Shown: in pieces, positions 1-13,750 of the stretch
How the letters are laid out: each line of letters starts with the position of its first letter
How positions within the stretch are numbered: the stretch's first letter is position 1
From: Microcella alkalica
Lineage (GTDB): Bacteria > Actinomycetota > Actinomycetes > Actinomycetales > Microbacteriaceae
Reading direction: 5' to 3'
Length of the DNA: 64,000 nt
Assembly: GCF_014595885.1 (NCBI RefSeq)
Contig: NZ_JABUKC010000002.1
Span: 1 to 64,000 of the forward strand
Made by a program: the position numbers and the translations under genes
Notes under the pieces: generated by a model
Seen by the model: the letters and a program-made list of their open reading frames with translations, nothing else
Database searches by the model: none
Told to the model about the DNA's origin: nothing

Positions 1-86
1 GCCACCGCCGACCCCAGGCGCCCAAGCTGCCCGAGGCCGCCTGGATCAACCAGCCCTCACAGGAGGCCCTCATACAGACCGCCTGA
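1..86 (+). CDS. Possible 3' end of an unknown gene
   Basis: An open plus-strand frame enters from the left edge and ends with TGA at 84-86. The 27 visible codons have mostly G or C in third position, and the tail (..LPEAAWINQPSQEALIQTA) reads like a real protein end. It would converge on and overlap the ATPase gene by 17 bases. Too little is visible to name it, and chance openness of a GC-rich frame cannot be excluded. Confidence 0.3.
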   Translation, partial: HRRPQAPKLPEAAWINQPSQEALIQTA

Positions 87-1041
87 CGGAATCTGTCTCA
101 CCCGCCTTGACACTTTCCGGCCGAGCGACACGTCCTGCCTCCACAGCGCGACGTAGGTACTCGTTGAGGTTCTTCTGATCCGGCAGAAGGTGTCGCAGAT
201 CCTCAGACCTGATGCCGTCCGGGTAGCGACTCACGGTTTCGATCAGCTCGAGCATCGGTTCCCCGACGCTCTTGTTCGCCTTCACGATTCGAGCGTTTGT
301 CTTCGCCTGCTCAAGCGAGTCACCGTCGAGCGTCCACACGCCCGCATCGCTCATCGTGAGCGCGTACTCGCCCTCCACAGCGTCGCGCGAAGTGACTTGG
401 AGGGTTGCCCGCTTCTCGTGCCGCTCGCGCCGCAGAACAAGCACGGAATCCGCAGCTCCGGCAATGCCCTGCGTCCCGCTCACGGCGTCGAGGAAGTCGC
501 CTGCGTCGTTCTTGCGCGTGTGGTGGACGATGAGCAGCGACGAACCCGGTACGGCGTCACAGGTGCTCTTGAGAGCCGACAGCACCGCATAGTCGTGGCC
601 GTACTGATTGCCGTTCCCTGCGGGCGGCATCACCTTCCCGAGTGTGTCGAGAATGACGACAGGATCTTGCCCGTCGAAGGCGTCGATGAAGCTGCTGATC
701 GTTGAGACGACCTGACCGTTCTCGATTGCCGTCTGAAACTGCAACCGGTCATCGACTGTCGTGACACCCATGAACCGAAGACGGGACTGCAAACGCCGAG
801 GGCCGTCCTCAAGCGCGAGATACAGCACCGGGCGCGGTTTGCCGACCGGAAGCACGCCGAACGCGTCACCGCCCTGCGAGAGGGCAAGTCCAAGTCCGAG
901 CACCATCCATGACTTGCCGATCTTCGGGGCGGCGACGAGCAGGCTCATGCCTTCGGGGATGATGCCCGGTACGACGTACTGAAGCGGGGGGAACTCCTGC
1001 GCCATGAGCCACTTAGCGCCGAACATTGTGGGCGCGCTCAT
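70..1041 (-). CDS. AAA ATPase, RepA-helicase/RecA-like (mobile element)
   Basis: A 323-residue P-loop ATPase of the AAA_25/RepA hexameric-helicase type common in plasmids, phages and integrative elements, where it probably unwinds or remodels DNA for element replication. A Walker A motif (APKIGKSW) lies near residues 40-47, a Walker B-like stretch (PVVILDTLGK) near 130, and a sensor-like IVHHTRK near 172. The C-terminal part resembles a winged-helix segment. I start at ATG 1041, not the upstream in-frame start at 1056, because ATG 1041 overlaps the TGA of the preceding gene (ATGA), which suggests translational coupling. It is the last visible gene of the minus-strand operon. Specific replication function is inferred from family and context only. 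Confidence 0.8.
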   Translation of the reverse strand: MSAPTMFGAKWLMAQEFPPLQYVVPGIIPEGMSLLVAAPKIGKSWMVLGLGLALSQGGDAFGVLPVGKPRPVLYLALEDGPRRLQSRLRFMGVTTVDDRLQFQTAIENGQVVSTISSFIDAFDGQDPVVILDTLGKVMPPAGNGNQYGHDYAVLSALKSTCDAVPGSSLLIVHHTRKNDAGDFLDAVSGTQGIAGAADSVLVLRRERHEKRATLQVTSRDAVEGEYALTMSDAGVWTLDGDSLEQAKTNARIVKANKSVGEPMLELIETVSRYPDGIRSEDLRHLLPDQKNLNEYLRRAVEAGRVARPESVKAGETDSVRRSV

Positions 1042-1334
1042 TCGCCCTGCTCCCACAGCGCATCGGTCTGCGCCTTCATGAAGTCGCCGGCCGTCTTGCC
1101 GGGGTTGTTCGCGACGAAGTACCAGGTGTCGCGCTCGTAGCTCAGACGGGCGATGCGGTGCTCTAGCTCGTGATGCGTCGCTGCCCGCCCCTGCTCATAG
1201 CCGAGCAGGTAAAGCGTGGTGACGGCGGGCGGGAGCTGCGCGAGCGACTTCGAGCCGTCAGCGAGCGCGTCGGCCCACTCGTGAAGCCACTTCTCAGCGG
1301 TGGGGGAGATTCGCACGATGTTGCCAGCGGTCAT
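1038..1334 (-). CDS. Hypothetical protein of the integrative element
   Basis: A 98-residue protein of unknown function. It starts at ATG 1334, which overlaps the stop of the upstream gene (ATGA), and its own stop overlaps the start of the ATPase gene, so it is locked into a coupled operon. It has no membrane segment or cysteine motif, and looks soluble and helical, with a charged middle (HHELEHRIARLSYERDTWYFV). Such proteins often sit next to replication ATPases of actinobacterial mobile elements. I cannot assign a role. Confidence 0.65.
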   Translation of the reverse strand: MTAGNIVRISPTAEKWLHEWADALADGSKSLAQLPPAVTTLYLLGYEQGRAATHHELEHRIARLSYERDTWYFVANNPGKTAGDFMKAQTDALWEQGE

Positions 1335-1645
1335 CGGGTCACCGCCGTTCGCCCAGCCCACTCCACGTTTGCCAGGGCATGCGCGGCGGTGGGGTCGGCA
1401 TATCCGGTCGCGCTGAACAGCTCGAAACCGCGCCAGGTCGCCTTGTGCTGCTCACGGTCGATATACGCGTCAATCTGACGGCGCACCGTCGCCGGGTTCA
1501 GACTGAATGCGCGCCGAATCACCTTCGACGCCTTCGAGGGTCGGAACTCGACGCCGACCCGTTCGAACTCGCTCGCGGCATAGCGGATGAGCTGTTCTAC
1601 CGTCTCGTACTGCCCGGTCTGCGTGGAGTGCGTCGGGCGGTTCAA
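1331..1645 (-). CDS. Hypothetical protein of the integrative element
   Basis: A 104-residue basic protein of unknown function, rich in Arg and Lys in its centre (RPSKASKVIRRAF, ATVRRQIDAYIDRE), which would fit a nucleic-acid-binding role but is not diagnostic. The start is TTG 1645, chosen because the TGA stop of the 39-codon gene just upstream overlaps it (TTGA). Its stop overlaps the next start (ATGA). It belongs to the coupled string leading to the ATPase. Confidence 0.6.
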   Translation of the reverse strand: MNRPTHSTQTGQYETVEQLIRYAASEFERVGVEFRPSKASKVIRRAFSLNPATVRRQIDAYIDREQHKATWRGFELFSATGYADPTAAHALANVEWAGRTAVTR

Positions 1646-1761
1646 GAGGCATCACCGCCCTTGAAGCCTGCGAACGCGGCGAGAATCGCCTCACGCTGCG
1701 AGTCAGTGAGAGGGGGAGCGCTCGAAACGATGCGCTCGATGTAGGCAGTGCAGTCGGCCAT
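1642..1761 (-). CDS. 39-residue leader ORF of the element operon
   Basis: A short reading frame from ATG 1761 to TGA 1642-1644 encoding 39 residues, beginning MADCTAYIERIVSSAPPL and ending FKGGDAS. It lies at the head of the minus-strand operon, and its stop overlaps the TTG start of the next gene. The pattern of acidic residues, then PPLT(D/E)xQR, then an Ala/Leu-rich helix, resembles very short proteins often found beside replication genes in actinobacterial phages and integrative elements. A GGATCTCC stretch just upstream could serve as ribosome binding site. No function is known to me. Confidence 0.55.
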   Translation of the reverse strand: MADCTAYIERIVSSAPPLTDSQREAILAAFAGFKGGDAS

Positions 1762-1780
1762 TGGAGATCCCTTGAGCCAA

Positions 1781-1814
1781 GGAATCCCGCACACTCTCAG
1801 AGCGGGGGATTCCT
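1781..1814. repeat. Imperfect hairpin upstream of small ORF
   Basis: GGAATCCCGC and GCGGGGGATTCC face each other around a short loop, pairing over about ten bases with a two-base bulge. It lies just upstream of the 39-codon gene and could be an mRNA leader structure or part of its control region. Confidence 0.4.
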
Positions 1815-1872
1815 ACCAGGGATCCACGGCCAGCACGGATCGGTTTCGCCTACATTAGACGGGGCCTGAGAA

Positions 1873-1890
1873 GAGGTTACGCATAACCTC
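1873..1890. promoter_or_regulatory. 18-bp palindrome, candidate operator
   Basis: GAGGTTA-CGCA-TAACCTC is a perfect inverted repeat with 7-base arms. It lies in the 152-bp gap between the 106-residue gene and the operon that begins at 1761, where the operon promoter should be. A repressor or excisionase-type regulator would be the expected ligand. None is identifiable in the visible part of the element. Confidence 0.5.
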
Positions 1891-1913
1891 CGACATTCCT
1901 ACGCGACACGCCG

Positions 1914-2234
1914 CTAATCGGGCAGCGAGTCGCACACGAGCGGCTTGCCCGTTGCACGTGACGCTTCGAGCGCCTTCGCAAAGTCGATCAGATGTGACTT
2001 GTTGCAGTTCTTGCAGAGCACGAAGGCCGAAGTGAACTCGCCCTCGTGCTGGAACCCCTCAACAGGCGTCTGCTTGCGTTCCGCAGCGCGGCTCATTGTC
2101 AGGCCGTTTCGATCCAGGTTCTTGCGGGTGACGATCGCCTGCCGCCACACGAGAAGGTTGCCGGTGGGCTTCTCCTCGATCCAGGCGAGCACGTGTCTCT
2201 TTGCCGCGCACACTGCCACTCTTTGGATGCTCAT
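1914..2234 (-). CDS. Hypothetical protein with CxxC motif
   Basis: A 106-residue protein of unknown function in the element. A CKNC pair near residues 74-77, plus two further cysteines, suggests a small metal- or nucleic-acid-binding fold, but the motif is not specific. The start ATG 2234 follows a GAAGGAAC ribosome binding site. Base composition is visibly less GC-rich than the chromosome to the right. It lies between the operon palindrome and a hairpin at 2254-2282. Confidence 0.6.
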   Translation of the reverse strand: MSIQRVAVCAAKRHVLAWIEEKPTGNLLVWRQAIVTRKNLDRNGLTMSRAAERKQTPVEGFQHEGEFTSAFVLCKNCNKSHLIDFAKALEASRATGKPLVCDSLPD

Positions 2235-2253
2235 TGCGGTTCCTTCGGCTCGA

Positions 2254-2282
2254 GGGGGTGCCCGATTGTCTCAGGCACCCCC
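2254..2282 (-). terminator. Hairpin downstream of the 167-residue gene
   Basis: GGGGGTGCC and GGCACCCCC form a perfect 9-bp stem around an 11-base loop, immediately after the stop of the upstream minus-strand gene. There is no T tract, so termination strength is uncertain. Confidence 0.55.
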
Positions 2283-2295
2283 GACATGCGAATGA

Positions 2296-2799
2296 TCAGG
2301 CCGAGAACTTGTCGATCTCGTCAGCAGCGTTCAACAGGCTCGCCGCGATGCGACGCAAAGCCGCCGCGTCAACCTCGACACCCTCCCCCGTCAGCCACAT
2401 GAGAACCGACTCGTCACCGACCCGCACCTCGTCCGCGTCCACGTCGTACACGTCCTCCCTGATGCGCGAGATCGTGACGTGCTCGTCCTGGTGCACGTTC
2501 CGCACCCACTCGCCGACCGGCAAGTTCTCCCCACCGGTCTGCTCCTCGACCGACGACAGCTCGGGGTCGGCCCAGTCGGGGGCGACCAGCTTGTCGGTCG
2601 AAACGCGGGCGACGGTCGAGAGGTACAGGCGGCCCAGCAGCTCGGGGTCGGTGATCGCGGCGACTCGGACGGCCGTCCATCCGCGCTCGGGGTTGTCGCG
2701 CAGGTGCTCGATGATCTCGAGGTGCATCGGGCTGCGGGGCTCGATGGACTGCGCCGCCTGCACCATCGCGGCGTAGGACGTAAACTGGTTGGTGTTCAT
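2296..2799 (-). CDS. Hypothetical acidic protein of the element
   Basis: A 167-residue acidic, soluble protein with no recognised domain, signal peptide or membrane segment. The start ATG 2799 follows an AAGGGAG ribosome binding site. It lies directly downstream of the integrase in the same orientation, 69 bases after its stop, so the two could be co-transcribed. The position next to an integrase could suit a directionality factor, but the sequence does not look like a typical small basic excisionase, so I do not propose it. Confidence 0.6.
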   Translation of the reverse strand: MNTNQFTSYAAMVQAAQSIEPRSPMHLEIIEHLRDNPERGWTAVRVAAITDPELLGRLYLSTVARVSTDKLVAPDWADPELSSVEEQTGGENLPVGEWVRNVHQDEHVTISRIREDVYDVDADEVRVGDESVLMWLTGEGVEVDAAALRRIAASLLNAADEIDKFSA

Positions 2800-2868
2800 T
2801 GCTTTTCTCCCTTGATTTGTGATGAACCGCCCTCGATCCGCTGCAACGGGTCGGGGGCATCTTCGTAG

Positions 2869-4227
2869 TTACCGGAATTCGATAACCACATCTTCCGGGC
2901 GGAACTCATTACGTCCACCCCGTTTAGTTGGCATGATTCGCACCGTGAACAGAGCGTCAATAATGCGCCGCTTGTTCATGAGCGTCATAGAGTCACGCCA
3001 GAAACCTGAAATGTCGGCCGACTGAATAACGGCGTTCAGCGCCGGGTTACTTGAGTCAAGCTTCGCGCGGATCGTCGCGAGCCGCTCCCGCAGCCTTGAA
3101 GACTGTTCCTGCACGGCGACCTTGGACAGAAGCCCGTCGGCAAACAACTCCGCGAGCCCGTCCAGTCGCGCCCGCAATTCCTGCGCCTCTGACGCGAGCG
3201 CCGCCTCATCAACAGTCGGCGTCAACAGTGCCGCCGCATCAGCCGCCGACAGGCGAGCAACAACAGCCGCTTCGACAAGCTCGTCAACAGCAGCAAGCCG
3301 CCGCCGCACGTGATAGTCGTGACACTGATACACCGGGTTGCCCGACTTGAAATCACGCGTCACCATGACCGGCGCGTCACACACCCCGCACCGGTACAAG
3401 CCCGATCCGACAAACTTGAGCGACTTTGACCAATCCTGCGTGTGACGACGAGCCGCTAGAGCGGTGCTGAAACGCTCCCAGGTGGCCTTGTCGATGATCG
3501 GCGGCCACTGGCCCTCCTCGTTCGCCGTTTCGCCCTTGTAGAGCCGCACACCGGCCAAAGCGGGGTTTGTAGCTCGCAACGTGAGGTTCTGGTAGCTGAA
3601 CGGCTTGCCGTTCATCCCGACCACGCCGCGCGCTTTCAGATCTTTCGCGATTGAGTAGAACGTTTCTCCGGCGATGTACCGGTTCACCGTTTCGCGTAAT
3701 ACAGCCGCCTCTGAGTCAACGATCTTCCACTCGGCGTCCGACTTCTCGTATCCGTAGGGGCGGGCCGATACGTGCCGAACGCCGAGAAGGGCGCGCTTGC
3801 GGTTCGCGTCAATCTGCCGCTCGGACTTGTGCTCAATCTCATACCGGGCAACACCGGCAGTCATGGTCGCAAACATGCGCCCGGTCGGGTTGCTCAAGTC
3901 GAGGTCACCGCCGCTGACAGTCATGATGTGCAGCGGGTGCTTCTCTGCCATGTCCATGAGCCGCACAAGGTCTTTGACCTGCCTGTAGAGGCGGTCGGTG
4001 TGCCAGACGACGATGACACTGAATTCCTCGCGCTCGAGCCGTTCGATCATCGACTCGAAACCGGGACGGCTGCCCTTGCTAGCGGAAGTGTCATTCTCCG
4101 TGATTGTGTCAATCACCTCGAGGTCGCGCGCGTTCGCGAGTTCACGACACTTGGCGAGCTGGCGCTCCACGGCGACACCCTCGCCCGCGCGGTCGAGGCT
4201 CTGCCTCACGTAGATGACTGCTCGCAT
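2869..4227 (-). CDS. Large serine integrase (site-specific recombinase)
   Basis: A 452-residue large serine recombinase. The N-terminal resolvase/invertase domain starts RAVIYVRQS, with the predicted nucleophile Ser10. It is followed by a recombinase domain (about 150-260, with GKPFSYQNLTLRATNPALAGVR), a zinc ribbon (CGVC at about 285 and a later Cys/His pair YQCHDYH) and a C-terminal coiled-coil-like helix (about 335-395). It would catalyse integration and excision of the element between attP and attB. I prefer ATG 4227 because homology to serine recombinases begins there, although a TTG at 4248 would add seven residues. Serine integrases usually lie beside their attachment site, and here the gene start abuts the truncated ssb gene, which marks the element's end. 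Confidence 0.93.
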   Translation of the reverse strand: MRAVIYVRQSLDRAGEGVAVERQLAKCRELANARDLEVIDTITENDTSASKGSRPGFESMIERLEREEFSVIVVWHTDRLYRQVKDLVRLMDMAEKHPLHIMTVSGGDLDLSNPTGRMFATMTAGVARYEIEHKSERQIDANRKRALLGVRHVSARPYGYEKSDAEWKIVDSEAAVLRETVNRYIAGETFYSIAKDLKARGVVGMNGKPFSYQNLTLRATNPALAGVRLYKGETANEEGQWPPIIDKATWERFSTALAARRHTQDWSKSLKFVGSGLYRCGVCDAPVMVTRDFKSGNPVYQCHDYHVRRRLAAVDELVEAAVVARLSAADAAALLTPTVDEAALASEAQELRARLDGLAELFADGLLSKVAVQEQSSRLRERLATIRAKLDSSNPALNAVIQSADISGFWRDSMTLMNKRRIIDALFTVRIMPTKRGGRNEFRPEDVVIEFR

Positions 4228-4253
4228 GTGGACATAGTAGGCACACAACTACC
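4228..4253. other. Predicted attachment junction of the integrative element
   Basis: The crossover should fall between the integrase start (4227) and the first codon that clearly belongs to SSB (ACC GAG GGG at 4251). The in-frame codons before this (AGG CAC ACA ACT) only partly match the usual SSB text, as expected at a hybrid attachment site. The exact core cannot be set without the other end of the element. Confidence 0.6.
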
Positions 4254-4691
4254 GAGGGGCTCGCGATCACCTCGTTCCGGCTCGCGAGCAATCAGCGTCG
4301 CTTCGACCGCGCGAAGAACGCGTGGGTCGACGGCGACACCAACTGGTACACCGTGACGAGCTTCCGCCAGCTCGGCACCCACGTCGCGAGCTCGGTGCAC
4401 AAGGGCGAGCGCGTCATCGTGTGCGGGCGCGTGCGCATCCGCGACTGGACGAGCGGTGAGAAGGCGGGCACGACCATCGAGATCGACGCCGAGGCCGTCG
4501 GTCACGACCTGACCTGGGGCCGAGCGAGCTTCACCCGCAGCGTCATCGTCGGTCGCGGCGACGGCGTCGACGGCAACGACGCGGCGACGGATGCCCGACC
4601 GGAGTCCGACGAGGCGGCAGCCGTGCCCGACGACGCCTCGCAGCTCGCCCCGCGCGAGCTCGTCGACGACGTCGCCGCACCGCCGTTCTGA
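4251..4691 (+). pseudogene. ssb: Single-stranded DNA-binding protein, 5'-truncated by the element
   Basis: The frame ending at TGA 4689-4691 encodes the body of an actinobacterial SSB paralogue: TEGLAITSFRLASNQRRFDR, then WVDGDTNWYTVTSFRQLG, then HKGERVIVCGRVRIRDW, an OB-fold with the usual aromatic and basic contacts, and an acidic tail ending APPF. The first 20 or so residues of the normal protein are missing. Reading backwards in frame, no ATG, GTG or TTG occurs before a TGA at 4215, so the piece has no proper start; the first GTG inside it (4353) is too far in. An element integrated into ssb explains this. The missing 5' part should lie at the far end of the element. Confidence 0.85.
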
Positions 4692-4708
4692 GCGAGCCGC
4701 GCGGCGCC

Positions 4709-4735
4709 GCGTCGCCCACGGAGGCTGGGCGCCGC
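4709..4735. terminator. Weak hairpin between convergent genes
   Basis: GCGTCGCCCA and TGGGCGCCGC can pair with one mismatch around a 7-base loop, in the 74-bp gap between the end of the ssb remnant and the end of the response regulator gene. It may stop transcription from both sides. Confidence 0.35.
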
Positions 4736-4765
4736 GACGTCGGCGCACCCAGCGCCGCGAGCGGA

Positions 4766-5407
4766 TCAGCGCACGCGGATGCCGCCGCGCTGCCACATGG
4801 TGACGGCAGCGACCCTGGGGTTCGCGCTCTCGCCAGTGTCGAGCCCGAGCGCGGCGAACAGTCTGGTCAGCATGGTCTCGACGGCGCGGACGGTTGTGCC
4901 GCGGTGCTCGGCCAGGGCCCGCGTCGACGCCCCCTCGGCGAGCAGGCGCAGCACGTCGGCCTGGGCCGCCGTGACGGTCGGCACGTCGTCGTCGTCGCGC
5001 GTGACGTCGTCGGCCTGCCCGCTGATGGAGCGATGCACCGCATCGATGAGGTCGTCGATCGCGCCGAGCTGCGACTTGACGAGGTAGACCACCCCGGGCG
5101 GAATGCGCCGGGGATTGGGCACGGCGAGTTCGGGGGAGCGGTGGGAGGTGAGCACGACGATCCCGATCCAGGGGTACTCCTCGGCGACCTCGGCGAGGAG
5201 GTCGGCTCCGGACTCGCCTGCCCCGAAGTTCAGGTCCGAGATGAGCGCGTGCGGGTCGGTCTCCGCGACGACCGCCAGCGCCTCCGCGACTGACGTCGCA
5301 CTCGACACCTCGAAGCCGCGGGCGGCGAGCCCGCCGCTCACGAGCGACACGGTGAACACGTCGTCATCGGCGACCACGACCCGCAGTGCCCTGCTCTCGA
5401 CCGTCAT
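4766..5407 (-). CDS. NarL/FixJ-type response regulator
   Basis: A 213-residue response regulator. The N-terminal receiver has the acidic cluster ADDD near residues 13-16, the likely phospho-acceptor Asp58 (LISDLN) and the conserved Lys111 (LVKS). The C-terminal LuxR-type helix-turn-helix spans about 142-205 and includes TRALAEHRGTTVRAVETMLTRLFAALGL. It probably binds DNA when phosphorylated by the hybrid kinase, whose gene it overlaps by 4 bases (5404-5407). It is the last gene of a four-gene minus-strand operon. The receiver is unusually long between beta3 and alpha4 (GAGESGADLLAE). Targets are unknown. Confidence 0.88.
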   Translation of the reverse strand: MTVESRALRVVVADDDVFTVSLVSGGLAARGFEVSSATSVAEALAVVAETDPHALISDLNFGAGESGADLLAEVAEEYPWIGIVVLTSHRSPELAVPNPRRIPPGVVYLVKSQLGAIDDLIDAVHRSISGQADDVTRDDDDVPTVTAAQADVLRLLAEGASTRALAEHRGTTVRAVETMLTRLFAALGLDTGESANPRVAAVTMWQRGGIRVR

Positions 5408-8100
5408 CCATCCGCTCCTCTCGAGCCAGCACTGCTCTCCGGGCCATGGTGCGCGGGCGCCTGCGCGTGGTCAAGCACAACGCGCACCGTCGACAGCAGG
5501 AGCTCGGTCGTGTAGGGCTTCGGGAGGAAGGCCGCGACGCCCATCCCCGCGCTGCGCTCGGCGCCGCCCTCCGATGTCAGACCGCTCGCCGCGATGACGG
5601 GCAGGTGCGGGTATCGCTGCTCGAGCTCGGCGGTCGTCGCGGCGCCGTCCATGACCGGCATCATCATGTCGGTCAGCACCAGGTCGAGGCGACCGCCCAG
5701 GTCGTCGATGATCGTCAGAGCCTCACGCCCGTGACCGGCCGTGAGGACCCGGTAGCCATGCTCCTCGAGGGTCCGAGCCGCGATCGTGCGGATCGGTTGA
5801 TCGTCGTCGACGACGAGCACGAGCTCGCCGCGACCGCGCGAGATCGGTCGTGCGGAGGGGGTCGCCCGTGTCGGCGAGCGATCGGTGCGGGCGACGGCGG
5901 GCAGCAGCATCGAGAAACGGGTGCCGCGACCGAGCTCGCTATAGACGCGGAGAGCGCCGCCGTGGCTGCGCACGATCGCGAGCGAGCTCGCCAGGCCGAG
6001 TCCCGTGCCCTTCCCGACCGACTTCGTCGTGTAGAAGGGCTCGAAGATCTTCTCGACGACGTGAGCGGGCATCCCCACGCCGGAATCGACGACGTCGATG
6101 AGCAGGTACTCGCCGGGAGGAACCCGATACGACTCGGCCGAGAGTCTGTCGGCAAGATGGAGGAGAGAGGCGCTGAGGTCGAGTCTGCCCCCGCGTGGCA
6201 TGGCGTCACGGGCGTTCGTGACCAGGTTCGAGAGGACCTGGAGCAGCTGCGTGCTGTCCCCGAGCACGTCGGGCAGCTCGTCCTCGACTTCGATCTCCAA
6301 CCGGATCTCGGCTGGCAGCATCTCGCCCGCGAAGCGACGGATCTCCTCGAGCAGCTGTTCGACGGCGACCCGTTCGCGTCTGCCGTCGACTCCGCGGGCG
6401 AACGAGAGCACCTGTCGGATCATGTCGGCCCCTCGATGCGCGGCGGCTTCCATGGTGTCCAGCAGCTCGCGTCGCGAGGGATCCTGCTCCGTCGATCGCA
6501 GCATCTGAGTGGACATGAGGATGGGCGTGAGCACGTTGTTGAGGTCGTGGGCGATCCCTCCAGCGAACGTCCCCAGGCTCTCCATCCGCGAGGCACGGGC
6601 TCGTAGATCCTCGTCGCGCCGCCACTCCGTCACGTCGGTGTCGACGGAGAGGATGGCGTCGGGGGAGCCGTCGTCCGCGCGCAGCAGCTGCCACCGGCAG
6701 TCCAGGACGAGCGACCGGCCGTCCTCGGTGCGATGGGGCACCTCCTCGGCGTAGTACCCCTCGCGAAGGGTGATCGCGTCGTAGTGCGCGAACGCGATGC
6801 CCAGCAGGTCCCCGATCTCCTGACCGATGGCCTCCTCCGCGGGAATCCCATAGATCGTCTCCGCCGCCCGGTTCCAGTGGCGCACCACCCCGTCCAGCCC
6901 CCGCACGATGATCGCGTCATTGACGGCGTCGATGAGCTCGGCCTGTTCAGCGATGCGTCTCTGCGCGATCGAGACCTTCTGCCGAGTCAGCTCGTCCTCG
7001 GTCACGTCGCGGAAGTAGAGGGCGAGCCCCGTGCGGGTCGGGTAGGCCGTCGCGTCGATCCAGCGCGCCGACGGGGCGTGGAACTGCCGCGTGGTCGTGC
7101 GGACGCGGTCGCGCACCGCGCGCTGGTAGGCGAGCTCGAGCTCGGTGTCGGCGAGCTGCGGGAACGCCTCCCAGAGGTTGTGCCCTTCGAACTCCGCGAA
7201 GGGGATGCCCGCCAGCAGCTCCGTGCGCCGGTTGGCGTACACGATGCGCCAGGCCTCGTCGACGAAGAGGAAGCCATCCTCGATGGAGTCGAGCGTCTCG
7301 TCCAGGCGCGCCCGCAGTTCCGCCTCGCGCTCGAAGCCCTCCACGGCGTCCGTGATGTCCCAGAGCGCCCCGTGGATCCCCGTGATCGCGCCCTGCCTGT
7401 CGCGCACCGCTTCGGCGACGACCCGGACGAACTGGCAAACGCCTTCCCCGTTCCGGATCTGCGACTGGAACGCGATCGGCGTGCCGTGCTCGAAGCACTG
7501 CTCGATGGCGCTCACGACCTCCTCGCGGTTCAGCGGCGCGAACAGCTCGAGCGTGTCGACCACATCCAGGGTCTGATCCTTGTCCAGGCTGAGCACGGCC
7601 CTGGCCTGCGACGAGAGGCGGACGGACTCCGTCGCGCGATCGATCGAGAAACCCCCGAAGGATGCGAGGTCGCCGGCGATGCGGAGGAGGCTGTCGGCTT
7701 CGGCGTACTCCCGCTCGCGCTCCTCCATCTGGTCGATCGAGAACGCCGTCATGAGCACCGCGGTGACGTCTCCGTCGTCGAGGACGGGGGTGTAGGTGAC
7801 CGAAGCGCGTCGAGGGATGGCGTCGGCGCGGGCGCTCGTCCGGAAGCGGCGCACGGCGCCCTGTGCCGCAGCGGCGAATTGGTCGGCGATCATGGAGCGG
7901 TCCTCGGGGAGGGCCCACTGCAGGAAGTGGGAGCCCAGGAGACGCTCGCGGTCGATGCCGCTCTGCCGAACCATCGGCTCGCTGGCGCCGATCACGGTGC
8001 CGTCGGGAGCGATGAGGAGGACGGGATCCGGATAGGCGGCGCCGAGCGCCTCCACGGCCCGCGCGAGCTGCGCGAGCGGGAGCGATCCGGGAGCGCTCAC
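5404..8100 (-). CDS. Soluble PAS-domain hybrid sensor histidine kinase
   Basis: An 898-residue cytoplasmic hybrid kinase without membrane segments. About four PAS-like sensor domains (roughly 15-125, 150-250, 265-375, 385-495) precede a HisKA dimerisation domain with the phospho-acceptor His518 in GGIAHDLNN. The HATPase domain has the N box (NLVTN, 625-629), G1 (DSGVG, 672-676), an FYTTK segment and the GTGLGL G2 box. A C-terminal receiver (about 758-878) has Asp811 (LTDMMMP) and Lys861. The start is GTG 8100, overlapping the stop of the upstream receiver gene (GTGA). A hybrid kinase normally needs a phosphotransfer partner; the single receiver and the membrane DHp-like protein of the same operon are candidates. 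The PAS ligands are unknown. Confidence 0.92.
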   Translation of the reverse strand: MSAPGSLPLAQLARAVEALGAAYPDPVLLIAPDGTVIGASEPMVRQSGIDRERLLGSHFLQWALPEDRSMIADQFAAAAQGAVRRFRTSARADAIPRRASVTYTPVLDDGDVTAVLMTAFSIDQMEEREREYAEADSLLRIAGDLASFGGFSIDRATESVRLSSQARAVLSLDKDQTLDVVDTLELFAPLNREEVVSAIEQCFEHGTPIAFQSQIRNGEGVCQFVRVVAEAVRDRQGAITGIHGALWDITDAVEGFEREAELRARLDETLDSIEDGFLFVDEAWRIVYANRRTELLAGIPFAEFEGHNLWEAFPQLADTELELAYQRAVRDRVRTTTRQFHAPSARWIDATAYPTRTGLALYFRDVTEDELTRQKVSIAQRRIAEQAELIDAVNDAIIVRGLDGVVRHWNRAAETIYGIPAEEAIGQEIGDLLGIAFAHYDAITLREGYYAEEVPHRTEDGRSLVLDCRWQLLRADDGSPDAILSVDTDVTEWRRDEDLRARASRMESLGTFAGGIAHDLNNVLTPILMSTQMLRSTEQDPSRRELLDTMEAAAHRGADMIRQVLSFARGVDGRRERVAVEQLLEEIRRFAGEMLPAEIRLEIEVEDELPDVLGDSTQLLQVLSNLVTNARDAMPRGGRLDLSASLLHLADRLSAESYRVPPGEYLLIDVVDSGVGMPAHVVEKIFEPFYTTKSVGKGTGLGLASSLAIVRSHGGALRVYSELGRGTRFSMLLPAVARTDRSPTRATPSARPISRGRGELVLVVDDDQPIRTIAARTLEEHGYRVLTAGHGREALTIIDDLGGRLDLVLTDMMMPVMDGAATTAELEQRYPHLPVIAASGLTSEGGAERSAGMGVAAFLPKPYTTELLLSTVRVVLDHAQAPAHHGPESSAGSRGADG

Positions 8101-8480
8101 GCCACCGACCCGCTCCCGCTCGGTGCGAGCAGACTCGAGACAAGCTCCTCGAACTTCGCCAGGTCCACCGGCTTGCGGGCGAACGCGTCCGCTTCCTCGC
8201 GGCCGCGCGGCGCCTCTTCGCCGCTCACCAGGAGCACTTTGGGAGCGGGGTCACGGCCCCGGAGGAGCGCGATGGTCGAGAGCACGTCCGCACCGGGCAT
8301 GTTGACGTCCAGCACGGCCACAGCGATGGCCAGCCACGCGTCCAGTCCGGCGATCTCGTCGGCGCTCCTCGCCTCGACGACGTCCGCGCCCATGCCCTGC
8401 AGCGCCATGCGCACCACCGTGCGCACCAGCGGGTCGTCGTCGGCGACCAGGACGATCGGACGGGCTGCGGGGTCAGCCAT
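8097..8480 (-). CDS. Single-domain response regulator (receiver only)
   Basis: A 127-residue CheY-like protein with only a receiver domain: the acidic triad DDD at 14-16, phospho-acceptor Asp58 (VLDVNMPG) and conserved Lys103 (RKPVD). There is no output domain. It starts at ATG 8480, ten bases after the stop of the membrane protein gene, and its stop overlaps the GTG start of the hybrid kinase, so it lies in the middle of a four-gene operon. In such a setting it likely shuttles phosphate between kinase domains or acts through protein contacts. Confidence 0.88.
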   Translation of the reverse strand: MADPAARPIVLVADDDPLVRTVVRMALQGMGADVVEARSADEIAGLDAWLAIAVAVLDVNMPGADVLSTIALLRGRDPAPKVLLVSGEEAPRGREEADAFARKPVDLAKFEELVSSLLAPSGSGSVA

Positions 8481-8490
8481 GCGACCGAGT

Positions 8491-9888
8491 CTAGGCCGGG
8501 GTGCCGGAGTACGCGGCCCCTCCGTTCGGGGGGAACCCTCGAGCGATGGTCGCGAGATCGTGGGAGGCGGCGCCGAGATGTTCGAGCACCTGGTCGGCGA
8601 CGTCAGCGAGGGTCTCCTGATCGCTGTCGGCGTGGAAGTTGAAGGCCATGACGCACGCGGCGATCCTGCCCTGCACGGGCCCGTGGAGGAGGTCGGTGAG
8701 TCGACGGCGCTCTCGTTCGATCGACGCGCGACGAGCAGCGTCCCATCGCTCGACGTCCGCGCGCGCCACGCGCAGCGTCGACTCGTCGTGCTCGTTGGCG
8801 CGAGCGAGTAGCAGGGCGGCGACCACGACCACGATGGAGAGCAGCAGGCCCGAGCTGACGACCGGGAGCAGGACGACTCCGTGTGCGGCGACCGGGTCGA
8901 TCCCCGCACCGAGCAGCACGATCGCGCAGAGCGCGACCGCCGCGCCGCCCGCCGCCAGGGTCACGGACGAGGCGGCGGCCGCGCGACCCCGGCGCATCGT
9001 CCGGCCCGCATGGAGGACCGCCCCGAACACTGCTCCCGCCGAGGAGGCGGCGACGATGATCTCGAGCGCTGCCGCCCCTCCGTAGATCCGCCAGGCATCC
9101 AGCAGCGTGAGGGCGAGCGTCAGAAGCACGACGAGCCCCGCCTTCGCCCAGGGCCGACCGAAGGGGATGTCGAAGATCTCCAGCAGCGTCACCCGGTTCC
9201 TCACCGACGGCAGCGCCGACTCCCCGCCACCGGCGGTGTCGATCACTCTCAGCAGCTCGTCGTGCAGCCGAGCGAGGCTCGCGCTGACCTCCTCGAACGA
9301 CCGACGATCGAGCTCCCCACGGAGGGAGCCGAGCCGGGTCCGCAGGTCGTCGAGAACGGGCAGCACGCTCGCGCCCAGTGCCTCCGCCAGGCGGGTGCTC
9401 GTCGTCGCCTCCGCCTCCTCGAATCGCGCGACGCTCGCCGTGAGCTGGCTTCGCGCGCTCTCGAGCTCGGTGAGGAGGTCGCGTCGGCGCTCGAACTGCG
9501 CGAGACCGTAGACGACGAGCGGTGCCCACGTGAGCATGAGGAGCAACCAGGACGCGATCCGGAAGGCGGCATCGCCGGGGACCCCCGCCACGGACTCGGC
9601 GATGCCAGCGCCGATGAGCCCTCGCGCCACGCAGGCCGTCGACCACAGGAGCAGGAACACGGTGACGGGCAGCAGCGGCCACCGCCGCCGGAGGAGGGTG
9701 CCTCCGACGACCACGATGAGTCCGACGGCGAAGTGCTGCAGGAGCGCGGAGACGAGCGGCCACCACCATGCCGGGTACTCGGTCGTCGACTCGCGCACCG
9801 CGATGATGAGGATGCTCGGCGGCAGGAAGGCGAGCCACAACCCCCAGTGCGTCGCCCAGCGACCTCCGAGTGCCTCGTTCAGCGTCAT
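8491..9888 (-). CDS. Membrane protein with histidine-kinase DHp-like end but no ATPase domain
   Basis: A 465-residue protein with about four or five hydrophobic segments near the N terminus (roughly 15-145), a soluble coiled segment (145-245), a second set of membrane segments (about 255-375), and a C-terminal helix, ERERRRLTDLLHGPVQGR, resembling the dimerisation and phospho-acceptor helix of HisKA_3-type kinases. Only about 60 residues follow, and no N, G1 or G2 ATP-binding motifs are present, so it cannot be a complete kinase. ATG 9888 is preferred over the in-frame start at 9921 because of a GGAGAGG ribosome binding site. It may be a sensor or phosphotransfer partner of the soluble hybrid kinase, or a degenerate kinase. 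Confidence 0.75.
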   Translation of the reverse strand: MTLNEALGGRWATHWGLWLAFLPPSILIIAVRESTTEYPAWWWPLVSALLQHFAVGLIVVVGGTLLRRRWPLLPVTVFLLLWSTACVARGLIGAGIAESVAGVPGDAAFRIASWLLLMLTWAPLVVYGLAQFERRRDLLTELESARSQLTASVARFEEAEATTSTRLAEALGASVLPVLDDLRTRLGSLRGELDRRSFEEVSASLARLHDELLRVIDTAGGGESALPSVRNRVTLLEIFDIPFGRPWAKAGLVVLLTLALTLLDAWRIYGGAAALEIIVAASSAGAVFGAVLHAGRTMRRGRAAAASSVTLAAGGAAVALCAIVLLGAGIDPVAAHGVVLLPVVSSGLLLSIVVVVAALLLARANEHDESTLRVARADVERWDAARRASIERERRRLTDLLHGPVQGRIAACVMAFNFHADSDQETLADVADQVLEHLGAASHDLATIARGFPPNGGAAYSGTPA

Positions 9889-9945
9889 CCGGCCTCTCCG
9901 CCCCGCCGCGCAGGACCCCAACCCATGATCGCCCAGGACACGTCG

Positions 9946-9990
9946 AAGCGGCCGCCCCGGCTCAACCCGAATGAGCCGTGGCGGCCGCTT
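9946..9990. promoter_or_regulatory. 45-bp two-tier inverted repeat upstream of membrane sensor gene
   Basis: Outer arms AAGCGGCCGCC and GGCGGCCGCTT (11 bp, perfect) enclose inner arms GGCTCA and TGAGCC (6 bp), separated by a 2-base internal mismatch. The inner loop is ACCCGAA. It begins 58 bases upstream of ATG 9888 of the minus-strand operon. It could be an operator, a stable leader hairpin or a terminator. Confidence 0.5.
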
Positions 9991-10136
9991 GCTCCGCAGT
10001 GCTCCAGCCCGACCCGAACGGGCGAGGTCACCGCCGCCGGTCTGCGCCCCCCGGGGGTCCCCCGACCCCGTTCGCTTTCCGTGCCACCATTGTGCGGCGG
10101 GGGCGAGACCCCCGCAAACGTCATCGATCGCGCTCT

Positions 10137-10151
10137 GTTCGCATTGCGAAC
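10137..10151. promoter_or_regulatory. GTTCGC-ATT-GCGAAC palindrome
   Basis: A perfect inverted repeat with 6-base arms about 68 bases upstream of the lipoprotein gene that precedes ettA. GTTCGC/GCGAAC half-sites are known in ClgR-type boxes of actinobacteria, but spacing there is longer, so assignment to ClgR is only a suggestion. Confidence 0.4.
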
Positions 10152-10218
10152 GAGAGTCATGTAAGCCCCATGTGGCCCCGTCATCGAGCGCTCCGGGGCA
10201 TCGGGAGGGAGAGGTGGG

Positions 10219-10704
10219 ATGCGGCGCAACCTCGGTAGGGCATCCGCGGCCATGGGGGTCGTCCTCGCGATCGCGGCGCTCGCCGCGGGGTGCGCGCCGT
10301 CGCCCGACCCCGATCCGGCGCCGACGCCGACGTCGACCTCGAGCGCCTCGGCCGCACCGAGCGCGTCGCCCGAACCCGCGCCGACCTTCGCCCCGGAGGG
10401 CGCCGCGGAGGAGAACCTCCCGATCGTGAAGGCGGCGCTGCAGCCGCTCGTCGCGGCCGGCGGCATCCCGGCCGGTCGCTCGGTGGTCGACGCGCTCACC
10501 GCGGCGGGCATCCCGCTCAGCGCCGTGCAGGTGACCGCCGATCAGACGGCGATCGGGCTGCCGGTCGACTCGCTGCTGTTCTCGGTGCTCGTCGGGCAGG
10601 AGTGCGTGCTCGGCCAGTTCGACGGCGACGGCTTCACGACGACGACGGCGCCTGTGCTCTCCACGGGGGCGTGCCTGGTGGGGGCGACCGCTTCAATAGA
10701 CTGA
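10219..10704 (+). CDS. Small lipoprotein (DUF6993-like)
   Basis: A 161-residue predicted lipoprotein. A short basic N terminus and hydrophobic stretch end in a lipobox, LAAGC (Cys25). A Pro/Ser/Thr-rich linker follows (about 27-60), then a compact globular domain (about 65-155) with two cysteines (QECVLG and TGACLVG) that could form a disulfide outside the cell. It resembles what I recall as DUF6993, found next to ettA in Microbacteriaceae. It ends four bases before the ettA start, so the two are probably co-transcribed. Function unknown. Confidence 0.75.
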   Translation: MRRNLGRASAAMGVVLAIAALAAGCAPSPDPDPAPTPTSTSSASAAPSASPEPAPTFAPEGAAEENLPIVKAALQPLVAAGGIPAGRSVVDALTAAGIPLSAVQVTADQTAIGLPVDSLLFSVLVGQECVLGQFDGDGFTTTTAPVLSTGACLVGATASID

Positions 10705-10708
10705 GGCA

Positions 10709-12391
<1,683 letters not shown>

Positions 12392-12408
12392 GCGCGACCC
12401 GGGGCGAA

Positions 12409-12424
12409 CGGCCCGCACGGGCCG
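12409..12424. terminator. Short hairpin after ettA
   Basis: CGGCCCG-CA-CGGGCCG is a perfect inverted repeat 18 bases after the ettA stop and just before the next gene. The 2-base turn means the outer five pairs would form. It could act as a partial terminator. Confidence 0.35.
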
Positions 12425-12439
12425 AGAACGGAGCGACTC

Positions 12440-13750
12440 GTGAACGGAATGCGCTACCGGATCCGGCGAGTCCTCGACTCGTTCTGGTTCGTCCCGGGCA
12501 TCGGGCTGCTCCTCGCGCTGCTCGTCGCGGAGGCGCTCGTGGCCCTCGAGCCGGCTCTGCCGAGCGCGATCGGTGACGTCATCCCGGCGGTGGGGCCCGA
12601 CGGCAGCCGGGGCCTCCTGAGCGCGATCGCGACGTCGATGCTCGCGGCGGCCGCGACGACGTTCTCGATCACGATCGCGGTGCTCACGCTCACGTCGTCG
12701 GCCTACGGGCCGCGCCTCGTGCGCAGTCTCATGGCCGATCGCGGCAACCAGGTCGTGCTCGCCCTGCTCGTCTCGACCTCGCTCTTCGCGATGCTCGTCG
12801 TGCGGCACGTCCGGGCGGGCGATGACTCGGAGTTCGTGCCGCACCTCGCGGTCAACATCGCGATCGTGCTCGCCGTCGTCTCGATCGTCGCGCTCGTGTA
12901 CTTCATCCATCACATCAGCGCGAGCATCCAGATCTCGCGCCTCGCGACGGGGGTGCGCGACCAGCTCGTCACCCTCCTCGACGACCTCTACCCCGAGCAG
13001 ACCTCGACGCGGCGGGCCCTCGCGTCCCGGTGGGCGGCGATCGACGAGGGCAGGGATGTCCGTGCCAGCACGAGCGGCTACGTTGCGAGCATCGACCATA
13101 GGCACCTCGTCGCGGCGGCGGCCCGCGCCGGCGCGCGCGTCGAGCTGCTGGTCCGGCCGGGCACGCTCGTGTGCGCGGAGGATCCGATCGCGCGGGTGTC
13201 GTCCGAGCCCGCGCCGTCGACCCGACCGGAGGCCGCCGCGAGACTGGACGCGGCGGTGGTCGCGGCGGTCTCGATCGACGACGAGCGGACTCCCGTGCAG
13301 GACGCCGAGCACCTGGTCCGCCAGCTCGTCGACGTCGCGGCCCGGGCGCTCAGCCCGGGCGTGAACGACCCGATCACGGCCGTCACCGCGATCGACGCCC
13401 TAACGATCGCGATGGCGAGCGCGGCCGGGCGCCCCGACCCGCGCGGGGTCCTCCTCGACGACGCGGATGCCCCGCGCGTGCTCGTCGCGCCGCGGGAGCT
13501 CTCCGCGCTCGCGGTGGATGCCGTGGACCTCATCCGCCAGTACGTCGCGGATCAGCCGCTCGTCGCGCACCGCCTGCTGGATCTGCTCGAGCGGCTCATC
13601 GCGCGAGAGGAGGCGTCCGATCGTTCAGCCGCCTACCGCGGCGCGGTCGACCGCGTCGTGCGATCCGCGATCGGGCCCGGCACGCTTCCGGAGGACGCCG
13701 CCGCGCTCGAGCGCCGCCGCGCCGACATCGTGCAGTCAGGAGCCGCATGA
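12440..13750 (+). CDS. DUF2254 family membrane protein
   Basis: A 436-residue predicted membrane protein of the DUF2254 family, with unknown function. Hydrophobic segments fall near residues 15-35, 58-85, 105-125 and 135-160 and include the conserved ITIAVLTLTSSAYGPRLVR region. A large cytoplasmic or peripheral C-terminal part (about 170-436) contains the conserved SPGVNDPITA motif. It starts at GTG 12440, 48 bases after ettA. Its stop overlaps the start of the thioesterase gene (ATGA). No regulatory clue is visible. Confidence 0.8.
   Translation: MNGMRYRIRRVLDSFWFVPGIGLLLALLVAEALVALEPALPSAIGDVIPAVGPDGSRGLLSAIATSMLAAAATTFSITIAVLTLTSSAYGPRLVRSLMADRGNQVVLALLVSTSLFAMLVVRHVRAGDDSEFVPHLAVNIAIVLAVVSIVALVYFIHHISASIQISRLATGVRDQLVTLLDDLYPEQTSTRRALASRWAAIDEGRDVRASTSGYVASIDHRHLVAAAARAGARVELLVRPGTLVCAEDPIARVSSEPAPSTRPEAAARLDAAVVAAVSIDDERTPVQDAEHLVRQLVDVAARALSPGVNDPITAVTAIDALTIAMASAAGRPDPRGVLLDDADAPRVLVAPRELSALAVDAVDLIRQYVADQPLVAHRLLDLLERLIAREEASDRSAAYRGAVDRVVRSAIGPGTLPEDAAALERRRADIVQSGAA

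Follow-up and report, generated by a model that had tools for sequence, protein, structure and literature searches.

A large serine integrase has placed a mobile element in the second SSB gene (ssb) of Microcella alkalica at codons 21–23, which splits the gene and leaves a 6-bp core at both ends of the element. Many elements with related integrases lie in other DNA-uptake genes, which suggests that such elements disarm the natural transformation of their hosts. Our preferred reading, to which we give a probability of roughly 0.6, is that an actinobacterial mobile-element lineage integrates into, and disables, transformation genes, the second ssb among them. The anatomy is visible at the two junctions, and from it we infer the effect on transformation. 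The DNA analyzed (the window) comprises 64,000 nucleotides, positions 1–64,000 of contig C2 of the host genome (G000), and its first base is the contig end. The features are collected in Table 1.

Table 1. Features of the element and of its insertion site, and genes that adjoin related integrases. Plain coordinates refer to the window; C4 is another contig of the same genome; L numbers are loci.
Feature	Position or locus	Strand	Basis or remark
End of multi-copy IS-like repeat	1–119		119–120 bp in common with other contig ends
Element, right part	120–4258		In window
AAA_25 (RepA/helicase-like) protein	70–1056	-	PF13481, 1.8e-24
Small element ORF	1038–1361	-	Homologues beside integrases in L151, L152, L153
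Small element ORF	1331–1645	-	Homologues beside integrases in L150, L153
Small element ORF	1642–1794	-	Homologues beside integrases in L150, L151, L152
Small element ORF	1914–2234	-	No protein family found
Element ORF	2296–2799	-	No protein family found
Large serine integrase, 452 aa	2869–4227 (ATG)	-	PF00239, PF07508; phrog_95 integrase, 1.1e-93
attR core CGAGGG	4253–4258	+	Same 6 bp as attL at C4 4703–4708
ssb paralogue, 3´ part	4259–4691	+	PF00436, 1.6e-13; open frame, no usable start; comparison with relatives
Element, left part (L054)	C4 120–4708		Outside window
HTH_17 protein	C4 837–1235		Weak excisionase match; weak small-terminase match (phrog_57, 0.00023)
HK97-type major capsid protein	C4 1246–2505		PF05065, 1.1e-58; TIGR01554, 1.9e-78
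Tape-measure protein, 503 aa	C4 2872–4380		PHROG tape-measure families, down to 2.2e-17
Target: flp-like pilin gene between tadC and tadE	L082, L083, L084, L085, L098		5 relatives
Target: tadC near 3´ end	L087, L090, L091, L092, L095, L096		6 relatives
Target: tadA-like ATPase (T2SSE; tadB-like gene next)	L093, L099		2 relatives; Pfam
Target: DUF4244 gene cut after N-terminal part, T2SSF gene beyond	L110		27.1 bits against a cut-off of 27
Target: comEC	L086		PF03772, 1.1e-34
Target: dprA, C-terminal part	L103, L105		2 relatives; Pfam
Target: comM 3´ end, dprA next	L088, L089		Mg_chelatase_C, 1.8e-08 and 1.3e-05
Target: DNA-glycosylase-like frame beside guaB	L097		By eye; stretch searched without Pfam match
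Target: Fpg-like zinc finger	L108		7.3e-06
Target: luciferase-like monooxygenase	L109		One tight clade with L106 and L107; L109 alone searched

The plus-strand frame that ends at 4691 matches the SSB profile over profile positions 22–102. An in-frame stop lies at 4215–4217, and ATG, GTG and TTG are absent before 4353. The window lacks the first 20 codons of ssb in full and also two bases of codon 21, which confirms the sequence-only reading that the integrase adjoins an SSB frame without its first 20 or so codons and without a start. That reading had also put the attachment site inside ssb at about 4228–4253; the site does lie inside ssb, with its core just to the right of this range and 25 bp from the integrase ATG. 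A tRNA attachment site was rejected, as the window has just two tRNAs, both at around 54 kb, and the surroundings of the far end of the element revealed none. The integrase carries an N-terminal resolvase catalytic domain (PF00239, 6.8e-30) followed by a recombinase domain (PF07508, 5.8e-13), the domain order of large serine integrases. The attachment sites are likewise those of this class, with attP beside the integrase gene and a short core common to attL, attR and attB; 13 of 21 relatives have CGAGGG at the unoccupied site in their ssb.

The far end of the element had been predicted to carry the 5´ part of ssb and a repeat of the core, and both are found on contig C4. The 5´ part and its upstream DNA occupy 4703–6205 on the minus strand and are 79% identical to the relative G002 over 1.5 kb; this flank continues to MTDTITLTGLVATTPRHIVTSEG, after which the sequence is foreign. 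The flanks, joined by script, encode an unbroken 166-aa SSB. After the split, the left side encodes a 51-aa peptide, and the right side retains a frame that has no usual start.

The orthologue set was drawn from 24 same-genus relatives, 21 of which have a close orthologue; G012, G016 and G018 are incomplete assemblies with a weaker SSB match only. The orthologue is whole in all 21, starts with M(T/S)D and runs unbroken into ITSFRLASNQR. In the nearest relatives, the protein reads MTDTITLTGLVATTPRHIVTS and then EGLAITS across the site. The short frame thus occurs in none of the 21, and the displaced 5´ end is linked to an element border, as the sequence-only reading requires. Among the matches listed in the family search, rows other than G000 start at query residue 1–3, and G000 starts at residue 15. 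The host genome has one further SSB-family match, on contig C5.

Decay of the split gene was considered and rejected. Its dN/dS against five relatives is 0.115–0.203, within the range of ten other pairs (0.070–0.246; first 112 residues), which fits a recent insertion. The same absence of decay would also suit a reversible genetic switch, as first suggested for this site, in which the host would regain ssb on demand through regulated excision. However, a recent insertion explains the absent decay equally well, no excision factor was identified among the element proteins, and the AAA gene is apparently cut by the repeat. One-way disruption fits the integrase relatives better. We regard such a switch as highly improbable, and its use by the host is unsupported.

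The element is about 8.7 kb in size, plus one repeat copy, and is broken over two contigs, as an assembly chimaera would also be. Yet both host–element junctions lie inside contigs and have the core in common, the joined gene is unbroken, and the gene order matches that of related elements; a chimaera of two contigs is next to negligible as an explanation. C4:1–119 is identical to the starts of C8 and C10, and C2:1–119 to the ends of C7 and C8. We read this pattern as one collapsed IS-like repeat between C4:119 and C2:120, which cuts the AAA gene, whose 3´ end is apparently replaced by the repeat at about 119; the IS nature is assigned by eye. Inspection by eye of the repeat (1–119 of the window and of L054) revealed TIR-like ends and a transposase-like C-terminus. 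The element is unlikely to lack a large central part, because AAA and HTH are separated by about 400–600 bp in three relatives and the contig ends share the repeat.

Judged by its genes, which include an integrase, an AAA protein, an HTH protein, an HK97 capsid protein and a short tape-measure gene, the element appears to be phage-satellite-like. The tape-measure assignment is made by PHROGs, and the Pfam and NCBIfam matches of this protein fall below cut-offs. A small opposite-strand gene adjoins attL. Among the element proteins searched, a set that leaves out some small ORFs and the repeat copy, we found no portal, large terminase or lysis gene, and likewise no relaxase or FtsK/Tra protein. 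We disfavour a conjugative element, since no transfer gene occurs among the searched proteins and a phage connection is indicated by the capsid and tape-measure genes. An integrase together with a major capsid gene outside a full prophage is also what defines candidate PICIs (PMC10654092). The closest capsid proteins found (G402 and G069) are 40–42% identical; a distance of 3.6 kb separates the capsid gene of G402 from its tape-measure gene, which resembles a full prophage. Peptide scans of genome_contigs and viral_contigs detected no close relative of the integrase or the capsid protein, and the scan of viral_contigs detected three of the tape-measure protein. Tail shortening was rejected, as two complete homologues on viral contigs have 495 and 533 aa against 503 aa here.

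Integrase relatives in G116, G313 and G049 are accompanied by an AAA homologue (57–66% identical), an HTH gene and some of the small genes. The element of G275 has the integrase, HTH and small genes in common and a DUF3631 gene at the place of AAA. So, by gene content, the element is one of a set of satellite-like elements. Tape-measure proteins are recognized by PHROGs in the elements of G275 and G313, and one of 879 aa by eye in G049. The tape-measure genes of related elements encode about 880–940 aa (L152, 5813–8626; L150, 14700–17446; L154, 8018–10657), with that of L154 assigned by eye and that of L150 divided between two frames. Among the proteins searched in these three elements, none was recognized as a capsid protein. 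G049 has another serine integrase a few kb past the element (L154, 17641–19221), perhaps in a tandem element.

A total of 398 family genomes were searched, and 37 including G000 have an integrase match at E 1e-40 or better. Thirty of the 38 matches listed came with a locus (ours and 29 relatives), and the gene adjoining the integrase N-terminus was read in each. As assigned from profile matches and gene order, a gene of natural transformation or of a Tad/Flp pilus locus adjoins the integrase in 19 of the 29 relatives, so that integrases of this kind in Microbacteriaceae often appear beside such genes. Both halves of the split flp-like gene are seen in G116, G313, G275 and G049, with the N-terminal part at the far element end; one truncated side is seen for the other target classes. 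The gene is whole in G002, where it encodes 58 aa. The joined 58-aa protein matched no Pfam or NCBIfam model, and "flp-like" is a name by position. The att core of the relatives was not found by exact match, and their att sites were worked out by reading the tad genes. For L110, tadB was rejected as the target: the T2SSF gene lies farther out, and the integrase adjoins a DUF4244 pilin-like gene, whose family we take to belong to Tad loci.

The integrase tree contains 30 rows, namely the 30 loci without a 151-aa fragment (L098) and with the second integrase of the host (L079). Our integrase falls in a clade (97/99) with four full-length integrases at flp-like genes, L086 (comEC), and L103 and L105 (dprA), so that its clade mates are in transformation or Tad genes in seven of seven cases. 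The six tadC integrases form a separate group (95/98). Because the root is arbitrary, L079 forms a long branch and several forks are open, we claim no order of target switches.

These positions could reflect ordinary site choice, in which serine integrases settle in conserved yet dispensable sequences, transformation genes happen to qualify, and the loss of ssb brings no benefit. The ssb paralogue is indeed widespread in the family, as the family search shows, yet its loss is tolerated here, and ten of the 29 relatives are in other genes, including the Fpg-like and luciferase-like ones, or in places without assignment (L094, L100, L101, L102 and L104). The concentration of the 19 relatives and of every clade mate in one pathway, a tiny fraction of the genome, is not expected from such a choice, which we consider unlikely. 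Another possibility is that the Tad pilus acts as a phage receptor and that the elements break it to exclude pilus-dependent phages, since Tad-locus genes are the targets in 14 of 29 relatives (flp-like, 5; DUF4244, 1; tadA, 2; tadC, 6). ComEC, DprA, ComM and SSB act after DNA binding, and insertions in their genes would leave the receptor unaltered; a phage-receptor role is accordingly a very unlikely explanation.

A weaker contrast is provided by the more distant serine integrases of the genus (14 loci, L068–L081). L079 adjoins an flp-like gene and L069 (G019) a tadA-like gene (T2SSE, 1e-41); L070 and L080, two places in one genome, adjoin a lepA-like gene by eye. Ten of the 14 are without assignment. 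An ssb within reach of the integrase is found for ours alone among the 44 loci (the 30 and these 14).

The host genome has ComEC, and tadC on contig C1. It also carries a second insert of about 9 kb (L164, C1:734001–752000, at about 4645–13625 of the locus), which interrupts the flp-like gene located between tadC and tadE. The integrase of this insert (11998–13596 of L164; 532 aa) is of the serine type and 25% identical to ours. The ssb is therefore not the sole lesion, and its loss may add little in this cell; the double lesion in a pilin-like gene and the second ssb fits the pattern across the elements. ComEC occurs in 388 of 398 genomes and is so nearly universal that its co-occurrence with the ssb paralogue says little. 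Several genomes (G057, G073, G074 and others) keep ComEC with one weak SSB match, which indicates that the paralogue is not needed wherever ComEC is present. Downstream of the split ssb, at a distance of about 6 kb, lies an EttA-like ABC-F gene (10709–12391 of the window; assigned by eye); in other Actinobacteria, ettA is a neighbour of ssb paralogues.

The serine integrase has inserted the element at the 6-bp core in ssb, whose reading frame has lost its start and would regain it upon excision. In the mechanism that we propose, selection has favoured insertion of the lineage into transformation genes, since a host unable to transform could not delete the element by recombination with imported DNA. 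The ssb paralogue would then serve transformation, as SsbB does in Streptococcus, which makes the second SSB of Microbacteriaceae a candidate transformation SSB. No transformation phenotype was found for the paralogue, and "ssb" is absent from the Micrococcus luteus literature examined. In the accessible part of one such report, the tad genes of this species are required for transformation, and loss of tadB reduces it by a factor of more than 100 but does not eliminate it (PMC4322843). A wider reading, tentative and to our minds a little short of even odds, is that a serine-integrase lineage of Actinobacteria, at least partly in small satellite-like elements, has spread by retargeting within the set of Tad/Flp pilus, ComEC, DprA, ComM and SSB genes, that its att sites mark transformation genes, and that transformation in Microbacteriaceae is served by their conserved second SSB.

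Related integrases of one actinobacterial family are thus found in six or seven genes of the transformation pathway besides ssb. If the preferred reading is true, natural transformation of Microbacteriaceae is frequent enough to be selected against, their widespread second SSB acquires a testable role, and integrases become available whose natural attB sites lie in comEC, dprA, comM, tad genes and ssb. The satellite-like elements with tape-measure genes in Actinobacteria would join the recently described satellites that bear such genes. In the literature searched, largely confined to journals readable without subscription, we found nothing on serine integrases with comEC or competence in actinobacteria, on Microbacteriaceae satellites with a serine integrase, or on actinobacterial phage satellites with a tape-measure and a major capsid gene.

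The splitting of a host gene by the element is a trait of transformation-disrupting mobile elements, of which it is probably a representative in Actinobacteria, with many targets, ssb included, among related integrases. Firmicutes and Proteobacteria offer documented cases of mobile elements in conflict with transformation, according to the available portions of Croucher et al. (2016; PMC4774983), which describe elements in comM, comFA, comK, comEC and comYC and explain them as a defence against deletion by transformation. Our element resembles these in disrupting a candidate transformation gene; neither "actinobacteria" nor "ssbB" appears in that text. A close parallel is provided by pneumococcal prophages, which disrupt comYC and ssbB in the part of the source available (PMC12637031). 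PMC8637289 lists serine integrases for two of them, PPH085 at an SSB gene and PPH100 in comGC. The attssbB and attcomYC prophages are like our element in that the integrase interrupts an ssb paralogue or the gene of a competence pilin. However, the pneumococcal elements are prophages of Firmicutes with targets of known transformation role, whereas here a small satellite-like element occurs in Actinobacteria and a role of ssb in transformation is proposed. The pneumococcal integrases are also described, in the portions seen, as having evolved independently for each competence site, whereas here several genes of the pathway serve as sites for related integrases of a single tree.

In gene content, the element resembles the candidate PICIs of Mycobacterium with capsid genes and phiRv1/phiRv2, which, as far as the available text of PMC10654092 goes, combine an actinobacterial integrase, in some cases of the serine type, with a major capsid gene without a full prophage. 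In our element, a tape-measure gene follows the capsid gene; "tape measure" is absent from the text of PMC10654092. The PLE satellites of Vibrio cholerae carry their own tape-measure protein, and a figure legend in the accessible part of the same source mentions putative tmp genes in cf-PICIs (PMC12987554). Our element is likewise small and has its own tape-measure gene, a likeness of gene content; chimaeric tails and use of the helper are demonstrated for PLE in that part of the source, whereas the element described here is known from its genes.
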